Of a DNA stretch of 61,064 nucleotides, positions 26,319-53,794 are shown in pieces (within the stretch, counting starts at the first letter, position 1; every line of letters begins with the position of its first letter). The notes below the pieces were generated by a model. That model made no database searches. It had not been told where the DNA came from and worked only from the letters and a program-made list of their open reading frames with translations. The DNA is from Bacillota bacterium (GTDB lineage: Bacteria > Macinerneyibacteriota > Macinerneyibacteria > Macinerneyibacteriales > DSCS01): contig DSCS01000015.1 of assembly GCA_011048995.1 (NCBI GenBank), positions 1 through 61,064 on the forward strand, read 5' to 3'. The translations under genes and the position numbers were made by a program.

Positions 26319-26330
26319 TTATATGAAAAA

Positions 26331-26403
<73 letters not shown>

Positions 26404-26414
26404 TTATGAGGAAT

Positions 26415-50731: not shown

Positions 50732-51530
50732 TCTTTTCCACCCCCCTGTGTTGAATCCGTTGAATAGACAACGCCCGGCCGGTTTCCGGATCTGCCTCAA
50801 CAAGGACTCCGTTGTACCAGACATCTTCGCAGGCTTCTTTAAATCTGTCAGGCAATGCCGTGGTAAACCTGCGCAAAATAACGTCTTTATCCACCCCGAT
50901 GACAGAATCATAACTGCCCGTCATTCCGGCATCCGTCAGATAAGCAGTAAACCCGTTTAAAATCCTCTCGTCAGCTGTAGGGATATGGGTATGCGTCCCG
51001 ATGACAGCCGTTACTCTCCCTGCCAGAAACCAGCCCATCGCCATCTTTTCCGAAGATGCTTCCGCATGAAAATCACAGAAAATCAACGTTGTCTCTTCTG
51101 CCGCCTCTTTCAGGATCATTTCAGCTTTTTGAAAGGGAGAGTCCAGAGGCTCCATAAAGATCCGGCCCAAAAGATTGAAGATCAGGATCTTGTAGCCCCG
51201 TATTGTCAAACACAGATAATCGCGCCCGGGCGCGCCGTCGGGGTAATTGGCCGGACGCAAGACCCGCTTGTCTTCTTCCAGGACTTCATAAGCTTCTTTT
51301 TGACGCCAGACATGATTCCCGGAGGTGATACATCCGGCCCCGGCTCTGAAAAGCTCATCCACAGTCTTCCTGGTCAGCCCGGTCCCCCCCGCCAGATTCT
51401 CTCCATTGACGATGACCAAATCCACTCCGTGCTCTTTGACAAGCAACGGGGTCAGGGCCCGAAAGGCTTCCCTTCCGGGCCCGCCATAGACATCTCCGAC
51501 AAAAAGAACTCTGAACGGTTTACTTGGCAT
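50688..51530 (-). CDS. ymdB: YmdB-family metallophosphoesterase
   Basis: 280 residues. FVGDVYG at the N-terminus, VNGENLAGG, SGNHVW and the metal-binding GTHTHIPTADE. YmdB-like enzymes hydrolyse 2',3'-cyclic nucleotides. It directly follows rny, as in many genomes, overlapping it by 11 bp, and overlaps folD by 44 bp. ATG 51530 suits the family start (RVLFVGD). Confidence 0.92.
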   Translation of the reverse strand: MPSKPFRVLFVGDVYGGPGREAFRALTPLLVKEHGVDLVIVNGENLAGGTGLTRKTVDELFRAGAGCITSGNHVWRQKEAYEVLEEDKRVLRPANYPDGAPGRDYLCLTIRGYKILIFNLLGRIFMEPLDSPFQKAEMILKEAAEETTLIFCDFHAEASSEKMAMGWFLAGRVTAVIGTHTHIPTADERILNGFTAYLTDAGMTGSYDSVIGVDKDVILRRFTTALPDRFKEACEDVWYNGVLVEADPETGRALSIQRIQHRGVEKNGYFVRGESSCPEA

Positions 51531-53073
51531 ATTCAATATACCGTTTTTCCCTGATGACATTGACTTTGATCATTCCGGGATAATCCAATTCTCCTTCGAT
51601 TTTCTGCGCGATCTCAAGGGCCATCTTGGATGCGTTCATGTCATCCACATCATCCGGAGAGATAATAATACGGATCTCTCTTCCCGCCTGAATGGCAAAG
51701 GCCTTTTCGACCCCTTTGAAACTTTGGGCGATTGCCTCGAGATTCTCAAGCCGCTTGATATACGATTCGATGCTTTCTCTCCGGGCTCCGGGACGTGCCG
51801 CCGATATGGCATCGGCTGCCATGAGCAAAACAGCATAGGGAGAATCAGCTTCTATTTCCGCATGATGGGCCGCGATGGCATTCAGGACAATTGGCTTTTC
51901 TCCATATTTCTTTGCCAGATCGCTTCCGATCTGAGCATGAGTTCCTTCCATTTCAAAATCCACCGCTTTCCCGATATCATGTAAAAGCCCTATTCTTTTG
52001 GCAAGTGCAATATTCAGTTCCAGTTCTCCGGCCATTATTCCCATGACAATGGAGACTTCTTTGCTGTGATTAAGAACATTTTGGCCATAGCTGGTCCTAA
52101 ACTGAAGTCGTCCGATCAGTTTTACGATCTCTTTGTGGACATGGGGAATATTCAAATCGATGACAGTCTTCTCCCCTTCTTCACGTATTTTTTTGTCGAT
52201 CTCTTTTCTGACCTTTTGAACGACATCTTCAATGCGTCCGGGATGAATGCGGCCGTCGACCACAAGCTTCTCTAATGATTGGCGGGCTACTTCACGCCGG
52301 ATGGGGTCAAAACAGGAAAGCGTCACCGCTTCCGGCGTATCATCGATAATAATGTCAACGCCGGTGACACGCTGCAATGTTCTAATGTTTCGTCCTTCTC
52401 GTCCGATGATGCGCCCCTTCATCTCATCGCTGGGCAAAGCCACCACAGAGACTGTATGATCACTTACTGTGTCGACCGCCGTCCGTTGAATGGCTTCGAC
52501 AATGATCTTTGTGGCCTCTTCATCGGCCTTTTCCAGGATCTCCTCCCGGACTTTTTTCGCCAGATGTTCAGCCTCTTCGCGGGAATCCACCGAGACCTTT
52601 TCCATGAAGATCTCCCTGGCCTCTTCACGTGTCAGAGAAGCAATGGAGCTTAATTCGTCCATTTCTTTTTTCCACAGCTCTTCCACTTCCGCCATCTTGC
52701 TCTGAAGAATTTTCTCTTTTTGGGAAAGGTTCCTTTCGGTCTCAGCCAGATCGTTTTCTTTCTTTTCTAGGGACAAGATCCGTTTTTCAAGATTCTCTTC
52801 TTTTTGCATCAGCCGCTGCTCGAACTTTTGCAGCGTTTTGGTTTTCTCATCCTTTTCCTGCTCGAATTTATTACGCATCTCGTACAGTTCGCTTTTTGCC
52901 AGAAGCTGGCCTTCACGCTTGATCGATTCCGCTTCCTTTTGAGCATCGCTCAAAATATGGGCGGCTTGCATTTCAGCGCTTTTTTTATTAAGCTTTCCAA
53001 TGAAGATACGCAGAAAAAACCCGAGGAGAATGCCTGCGGCGACGAAGACAATGTAAAGCAGTATCTCTTGCAT
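51520..53073 (-). CDS. rny: ribonuclease Y
   Basis: 517 residues, typical length. A short N-terminal membrane anchor (about 4-22), a coiled coil to about 200, a KH domain (GRIIGREGRNIRTLQ at about 219-233), then an HD domain with NHSKEVS and HDIGKA at about 365. It starts bulk mRNA decay in many non-enterobacterial groups. ATG 53073 follows GGAGGTGA, an excellent site; the longer frame into the 6S region has no support. Confidence 0.96.
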   Translation of the reverse strand: MQEILLYIVFVAAGILLGFFLRIFIGKLNKKSAEMQAAHILSDAQKEAESIKREGQLLAKSELYEMRNKFEQEKDEKTKTLQKFEQRLMQKEENLEKRILSLEKKENDLAETERNLSQKEKILQSKMAEVEELWKKEMDELSSIASLTREEAREIFMEKVSVDSREEAEHLAKKVREEILEKADEEATKIIVEAIQRTAVDTVSDHTVSVVALPSDEMKGRIIGREGRNIRTLQRVTGVDIIIDDTPEAVTLSCFDPIRREVARQSLEKLVVDGRIHPGRIEDVVQKVRKEIDKKIREEGEKTVIDLNIPHVHKEIVKLIGRLQFRTSYGQNVLNHSKEVSIVMGIMAGELELNIALAKRIGLLHDIGKAVDFEMEGTHAQIGSDLAKKYGEKPIVLNAIAAHHAEIEADSPYAVLLMAADAISAARPGARRESIESYIKRLENLEAIAQSFKGVEKAFAIQAGREIRIIISPDDVDDMNASKMALEIAQKIEGELDYPGMIKVNVIREKRYIEYAK

Positions 53074-53125
53074 GTTCACCTCCATCATGTTATTCCATGA
53101 GGAGCAGCGAGAAAAAATGACAGAG

Positions 53126-53280
53126 AAAAAGCCCGCGACAGAGTGGCGTCCCTTTTTAGTTGAGTCCCTTTTTACAAGTGGGCGCCCTGAGAACGGCTTC
53201 CTGTAACCATTCCACCGCCCGAATGGGGCTCCCAAGGGAAAAATGTTGGCTCAACAAAAATAGGCATCCTCTCATGCCGC
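53126..53280 (-). ncRNA. ssrS: candidate 6S RNA (SsrS)
   Basis: About 150 nt with its own promoter. The predicted 5' end (53280) opens a closing stem: GCGGCA (53280-53275) with TGTCGC (53140-53135), then GAG with CTC and GG with CC. Inner pairs join TTTTT (53260-53256) to AAAAA (53157-53153) and GTTGAG (53255-53250) to CTCAAC (53164-53159). A large bubble (53247-53235 opposite 53178-53168) separates this from an apical stem TGGG-A-GCCC (53234-53226) with GGGC-G-CCCA (53187-53179). This is the 6S layout (closing stem, central bubble, terminal stem-loop) that captures RNA polymerase. Location after zapA is the usual ssrS site. A T-tract (53130-53126) follows GGGC. Confidence 0.75.
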
Positions 53281-53285
53281 AGGCA

Positions 53286-53314
53286 ATTATATGATAACAC
53301 TTTGCCGGTGCTAA
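53286..53314 (-). promoter_or_regulatory. promoter of the 6S-like RNA
   Basis: Minus strand TTAGCA (53314-53309), 17 bp, TATAAT (53291-53286). The consensus -10 puts the start at about 53280, precisely the first base of the closing stem. Confidence 0.65.
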
Positions 53315-53325
53315 TGCAATATAAT

Positions 53326-53589
53326 TCATAGATGTCTCTCTATCGTTTTCTCTATCTCGTCAATTTCATCAACGATCTTTCGATGCTCCTCTTTTAACTC
53401 CCAATATTCTTCTATTACCGTCAGCAGCGCCAAAACTAATACGTCTTTGGAAGTGCCGACACCGGGAACAGACCCGGCTGTTTCGATCTTTTCCTCCAAA
53501 TAGCGGATCATCGCCGCAATCTCTGTGCGGTTCTTGTCCGAACTCACTTTATACGTTTTTCCCAAAATATCAAGTTCTAAGGTATTCAT
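53326..53589 (-). CDS. zapA: cell division protein ZapA
   Basis: 87 residues. Family features: N-terminal strand LELDILGKTYKVSSD, helix with RYLEEKIETAG, and a coiled coil ending IDEIEKTIER. ZapA crosslinks FtsZ filaments. ATG 53589 is preferred over TTG 53604. It is followed by the 6S-like RNA and rny. Confidence 0.88.
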   Translation of the reverse strand: MNTLELDILGKTYKVSSDKNRTEIAAMIRYLEEKIETAGSVPGVGTSKDVLVLALLTVIEEYWELKEEHRKIVDEIDEIEKTIERHL

Positions 53590-53593
53590 CGCC

Positions 53594-53794
53594 TCAAACT
53601 CCAAGGTTCTCCAAGGTATCTAAAATCTTTTTCAGGCGCAGTTTGTCTTTTCGCTGTTCTTCTTCTGCCGCCGCCAGGGATCGCCGCGCTTCGGCTAACT
53701 CACTATCCTTTTCCCTGAACTGACGGCGAAGCTCTTCACATCTCTCAATCAGTCGAAAGACTTTTTCTTCAAGAAGAGCCAGGGACGGATCCAT
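53594..53794 (-). CDS. ZapB-like short coiled-coil protein
   Basis: 66 residues, one continuous charged helix (LLEEKVFRLIERCEELRR, then RKDKLRLKKIL). Sequence is too simple to name, but the size, coiled coil and position between pheT and zapA match ZapB-like division proteins. ATG 53794 follows GAGGTAAAG; its stop touches the zapA start region. Confidence 0.7.
   Translation of the reverse strand: MDPSLALLEEKVFRLIERCEELRRQFREKDSELAEARRSLAAAEEEQRKDKLRLKKILDTLENLGV

Follow-up and report, generated by a model that had tools for sequence, protein, structure and literature searches.

Gene neighbourhood and family assignment

6S RNA is a bacterial small RNA that restrains the main RNA polymerase. 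The element described here lies on the minus strand of a 61,064-nt stretch of DNA (termed the window), where a 6S RNA gene (ssrS; 53126 to 53284, approximately 159 nt if the RNA begins at 53284) is preceded by zapA (53326 to 53589; Pfam ZapA, 44.8 bits versus a cut-off of 23.8) and followed by rny, which encodes RNase Y (51520 to 53073; TIGR03319, 705.7 bits versus a cut-off of 454.35). These matches confirm both neighbours named in the original prediction, which had placed a 6S RNA between zapA and rny. The position of zapB is occupied by a gene for a 66-aa coiled-coil protein (53594 to 53794, minus strand), whose Pfam ZapB match of 19.1 bits falls under the cut-off of 31.5; clear ZapB matches reside in the equivalent place in other phyla. 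This coiled-coil gene sits between pheT and zapA, and a relative from the same order carries no such gene and has pheT followed directly by zapA. On the other side of the RNA, the rny reading frame remains open upstream across most of the 6S gene (53074 to 53235, minus strand, with a TTG at 53235), such that automatic gene prediction might wrongly extend the N terminus of RNase Y over the RNA. The likely rny start is the ATG at 53073, behind a GGAGG.

The entire window was scanned with Infernal against all 4227 Rfam families, and two matches were obtained, a tRNA and 6S/SsrS (RF00013). The window's only tRNA is a tRNA-Gly (anticodon CCC) at 26330 to 26404 on the minus strand. The RF00013 match extends from 53288 to 53126 on the minus strand with 55.4 bits (E 2.6e-8), above the curated gathering score of 46.4 bits, and its alignment is complete, covering model positions 1 to 187 of 187. 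The proposal that 53126 to 53314 holds a 6S RNA is therefore borne out by a full-length match, and no RNA family fits better. Other families were dismissed for 53288 to 53126, as the next-best matches in a permissive scan of the neighbourhood were far under their own thresholds.

The score itself is modest and low by the standards of the family. 6S RNAs are found above threshold in each of the three genomes that make up our sample of this phylum, with RF00013 scores of 51.7 to 68.2 bits, versus 80 to 110 for many other 6S RNAs. The gene is present in a single copy, and a search for a second 6S copy across the whole 1.88-Mb genome (99.7% complete) found none.

Secondary structure, covariation and conservation

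Read from 53284 to 53126 on the minus strand, the RNA has the 6S layout of a closing stem, lower arm, central bubble and apical arm, and then TTTTT, in agreement with the closing stem, central bubble and apical arm of the Rfam family. The 5′ strand of the closing stem, GCCUGCGGCA (53275 to 53284), is partnered by the 3′ strand UGUCGCGGGC (53131 to 53140) in all three phylum genomes, among which the stem carries a compensatory change from C-G to U-A; the TTTTT (53130 to 53126) directly follows the 3′ strand. The central bubble is formed by a 5′ strand, AACAUUUUUCCCUU (53234 to 53247, defined by a constrained fold), which holds the predicted template start of a product RNA (pRNA), and by a 3′ strand, ACUUGUAAAAAG (53168 to 53179, defined by the Rfam alignment and the constrained fold). 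Within the 5′ strand, AACAUUU and UCCCU are identical across the three phylum genomes. A small hairpin is predicted in the 3′ strand, resembling the 3′-bubble hairpin reported for Bacillus subtilis 6S-1 RNA (PMC8876501).

The apical arm (53180 to 53233) has a reduced tip relative to the Rfam consensus, with 4 residues in place of 23 consensus positions, and the tip is likewise reduced in the same-order relative (L092; 3 residues versus 26 consensus positions). It is because of this trimming, by approximately 20 nt, that the RNA is about 160 nt long whereas the RF00013 consensus has 187 positions. 6S RNAs of 156 to 158 nt occur in other phyla (L094 and L099), and the length is therefore inside the known range. 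Two copies of AAAAAGGGAC lie 16 nt apart within the RNA's 3′ half (53173 to 53148, minus strand); the duplication has probably arisen by chance, and the second copy is altered in the same-genus relative.

The 189 nt originally proposed fold with −72.1 kcal/mol versus a mean of −56.8 kcal/mol for shuffled sequences (z −3.58), and the 159-nt RNA from 53284 to 53126 gives a z of −4.71; in each case none of 200 shuffles was as stable. The fold is therefore real and no accident of base composition, and the long matched strands with an apical stem that had been seen in the letters correspond to this minus-strand rod. The plus-strand signal (z −1.39) was unremarkable and was dismissed. The bubble, originally drawn with 13 and 11 nt, fares less simply. 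When the 5′ strand is held unpaired, the RNA has a 14-nt 5′ bubble and −65.7 kcal/mol, which is 2.4 kcal/mol above the minimum of −68.1. The open bubble is thus a low-lying fold and not the predicted minimum, in which the central bubble is partly shut through UCCCU:AGGGA pairing. This pairing could serve as an aid to bubble closure after polymerase release. It is identical in the three phylum genomes and is therefore silent as covariation evidence.

Covariation was assessed by taking the structure from the window alone and superimposing it on an alignment of the three genomes that was built from sequence only; structure and alignment were thus derived independently. Across these three sequences, 94.8% of cells were paired and 7 pairs had changed on both sides, a result that none of 500 shuffles equalled. 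Sliding the partner by 1 to 3 columns reduced pairing to 36 to 51%, and an RNAalifold consensus of the three genomes contained 9 pairs changed on both sides. The outcome is clear although three sequences are few, and the stems, whose lack of covariation among relatives the original prediction had named among its possible refutations, passed this test. An alignment from a model built on the three relatives was left out of this analysis; the model caught only some of the distant 6S RNAs and gave scores to certain antisense strands as well, the latter because the rod is nearly self-complementary.

Compared with the same-genus relative, the 6S RNA is 93.3% identical and the spacer between zapA and 6S is 94.6% identical, versus 73.9% for zapA, 77.7% for the first 300 bases of rny and 57.7% for the spacer between 6S and rny. 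That the RNA and the spacer ahead of it exceed the flanking genes in identity indicates that selection acts on both the RNA and its promoter-bearing spacer.

Candidate promoters, predicted termini and a proposed product RNA

Two overlapping candidate promoters precede the RNA on the minus strand. The one originally proposed comprises TTAGCA (53314 to 53309), a 17-nt spacer and TATAAT (53291 to 53286), spanning 53286 to 53314. The motif is indeed present and matches 10 of 12 consensus bases, and sites of this grade were observed twice in the scan versus 0.8 expected by chance. Its TATAAT is altered in both relatives, to TATAAC in the same genus and TATCAA in the same order. Moreover, the start that it implies, at about 53280 to 53279, does not coincide with the first base of the closing stem as had been supposed; position 53280 falls 4 nt inside the stem, whose first base is 53284. 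The second candidate (53291 to 53319) has TTGCAT (53319 to 53314), a 17-nt spacer and TATCAT (53296 to 53291), which places its −10 element 5 nt upstream of TATAAT. It fits the consensus less well (8 of 12 by hand count, versus 10 of 12), and it has counterparts in the same-genus relative (TTGCAT-17-TATTAT) and the same-order relative (TTGAAT-16-TAACAT). On these sequence patterns we prefer TTGCAT/TATCAT, with transcription predicted to begin at 53284, where the closing stem itself begins. At the other terminus, the closing stem and TTTTT (53130 to 53126) are kept in the three phylum genomes, and the run of the stem into this conserved TTTTT suggests that the RNA ends there. A search for a strong intrinsic terminator apart from the closing stem found none, and the 3′ strand of the stem together with the T run probably doubles as the terminator.

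6S RNAs mimic an open promoter and hold the housekeeping holoenzyme, from which they are released when a pRNA is copied from the 5′ bubble strand (PMC8876501). By homology, the pRNA of the window's 6S would start opposite C53245, which is nucleotide 40 of the RNA, and would read 5′-GUUGGCUCAACAAA (53245 to 53258, plus strand), with the predicted opening GUUGGCUC. The pRNA of B. subtilis 6S-1 RNA likewise starts with G at nucleotide 40 (PMC8876501). As judged from its sequence, the predicted pRNA has GG at positions 4/5, as do those of E. coli, A. aeolicus and R. sphaeroides, and differs in this from the lactic acid bacteria group, with GG at 5/6; it also has an adenine beside the start, the base found next to the pRNA start in 6S RNAs generally (PMC8414754). 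6S RNAs from several other phyla also contain the sequence UGAGCCAACA, which lies at the pRNA start region.

The genome encodes a housekeeping sigma factor (RpoD C-terminal model, 373.1 bits versus a cut-off of 354). The genome also has a third match to RpoD-like sigma factors (G000 contig C1:86126-86818, L108), which contains one in-frame TAA. This may reflect a pseudogene, a frame slip or the merging of two frames.

If the RNA behaves as its family does, it would be transcribed from its own promoter in the spacer between zapA and 6S, from about 53284 to the T run. The rod, with its bubble open, would imitate an open promoter, bind the RNA polymerase holoenzyme with the housekeeping sigma factor, blocking it once growth stops. 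When nucleotides return, the polymerase would copy the 6S RNA from opposite C53245 to yield a pRNA beginning GUUGGCUCAACAAA, which would open the lower arm and thereby release the polymerase. Transcription, polymerase binding and pRNA synthesis are in this way ascribed to the RNA from what is known of other 6S RNAs.

Alternative explanations and the link to rny

A 57-aa reading frame (53329 to 53156, minus strand) covers much of the element and starts in overlap with the zapA stop, and a small protein could in principle be the true product, with the RNA fold incidental. The frame is open in both the window and the same-genus relative. Between these two, however, 7 of the 9 changed codons alter the amino acid and changes are spread over first, second and third codon positions; the same-order relative does not keep the frame, and the protein has no Pfam match. 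The compensatory changes in the RNA also speak against coding. On the substitution pattern and the loss of the frame we rejected this explanation, which we regard as extremely improbable. Equally hard to credit is the idea that the element is a decayed 6S relic without function. Its modest RF00013 score and reduced apical tip might be read in this way, but the RNA retains its pairing and is 93.3% identical to its counterpart in the same genus while neighbouring genes are at 74 to 78%, and the genome has no second 6S copy to take over.

Because the element shares the strand of rny and immediately precedes it, with its stem and T run ending 53 nt short of its start codon, and because 6S and rny adjoin in several other lineages, we also considered whether its main role is to control rny in cis, by a structured leader or attenuator, in place of the trans-acting role of a 6S RNA. 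Against this stand the match to the whole 6S model, the poorly conserved 52-nt spacer between 6S and rny (57.7%), and four loci (L004, L029, L055 and L066) in which genes of 200 to 450 codons separate 6S and rny. We therefore hold a primarily cis-acting role to be very improbable, while read-through may influence rny in cis as a side-effect.

The reading that we favour, and of which we are nearly certain, is a single 6S gene on the minus strand with its own promoter in the spacer behind zapA, running from about 53284 to the T run and folding into a rod that would block RNA polymerase. For this gene, the analysis has established its family, its fold, its conservation and its genomic context.

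That context is shared. zapA lies directly before 6S and rny directly after it in all three phylum genomes (including L092 and L098), and outside Firmicutes, 10 of 20 rny loci have a 6S gene ahead of rny in the same orientation. Among these, a ZapB-like gene, ZapA, 6S and rny follow one another in L021, L051, L026 and L076, and in L026, a Thermoanaerobaculia genome, pheT is also ahead of them; this order was found in Acidobacteriota and delta-proteobacteria, among others. The shorter series zapA-6S-rny also appears in five genomes of other phyla (L083, L085, L090, L096 and L102), and among all of these loci a ZapB-like coiled coil comes first in most. Judged by gene order, the window's locus is an ordinary case of a widespread arrangement.

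Known 6S loci offer partial parallels. In β- and γ-Proteobacteria, 6S follows zapB-zapA (PMC7641849), and zapA is upstream in the window as well. The zapB-zapA-ssrS-(ygfA)-EVE array of these bacteria resembles the window in its small coiled-coil gene, zapA and 6S on one strand; it differs in that the window has neither an adjacent ygfA nor an EVE gene, and the downstream position of ygfA (fau) is taken directly by rny. In L066, a ygfA-like gene (named by eye) lies between 6S and rny. The neighbours also differ from those of B. subtilis 6S-1, which adjoins rarA. Literature searches confined to open-access papers found no description of a link between 6S and rny, and no work on 6S in candidate phyla; given that scope, they are only weak evidence that such papers do not exist.

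A functional coupling between 6S and rny, in which RNase Y would be expressed by read-through of the 6S terminator or would mature the 6S RNA, we consider improbable on present evidence. If true, it would account for the retention of the zapB-zapA-6S-rny order in distant lineages.

The gene is an ordinary one, a further member of a known family from a sparsely sampled host phylum, and its mechanism is not expected to be new. What is gained is the confirmation of a 6S RNA in a phylum represented by three genomes in our collection, where standard models do recover 6S, together with a usable predicted start site and a predicted pRNA. The zapB-zapA-6S-rny neighbourhood is, in addition, a useful landmark for divergent 6S genes in poorly studied lineages.
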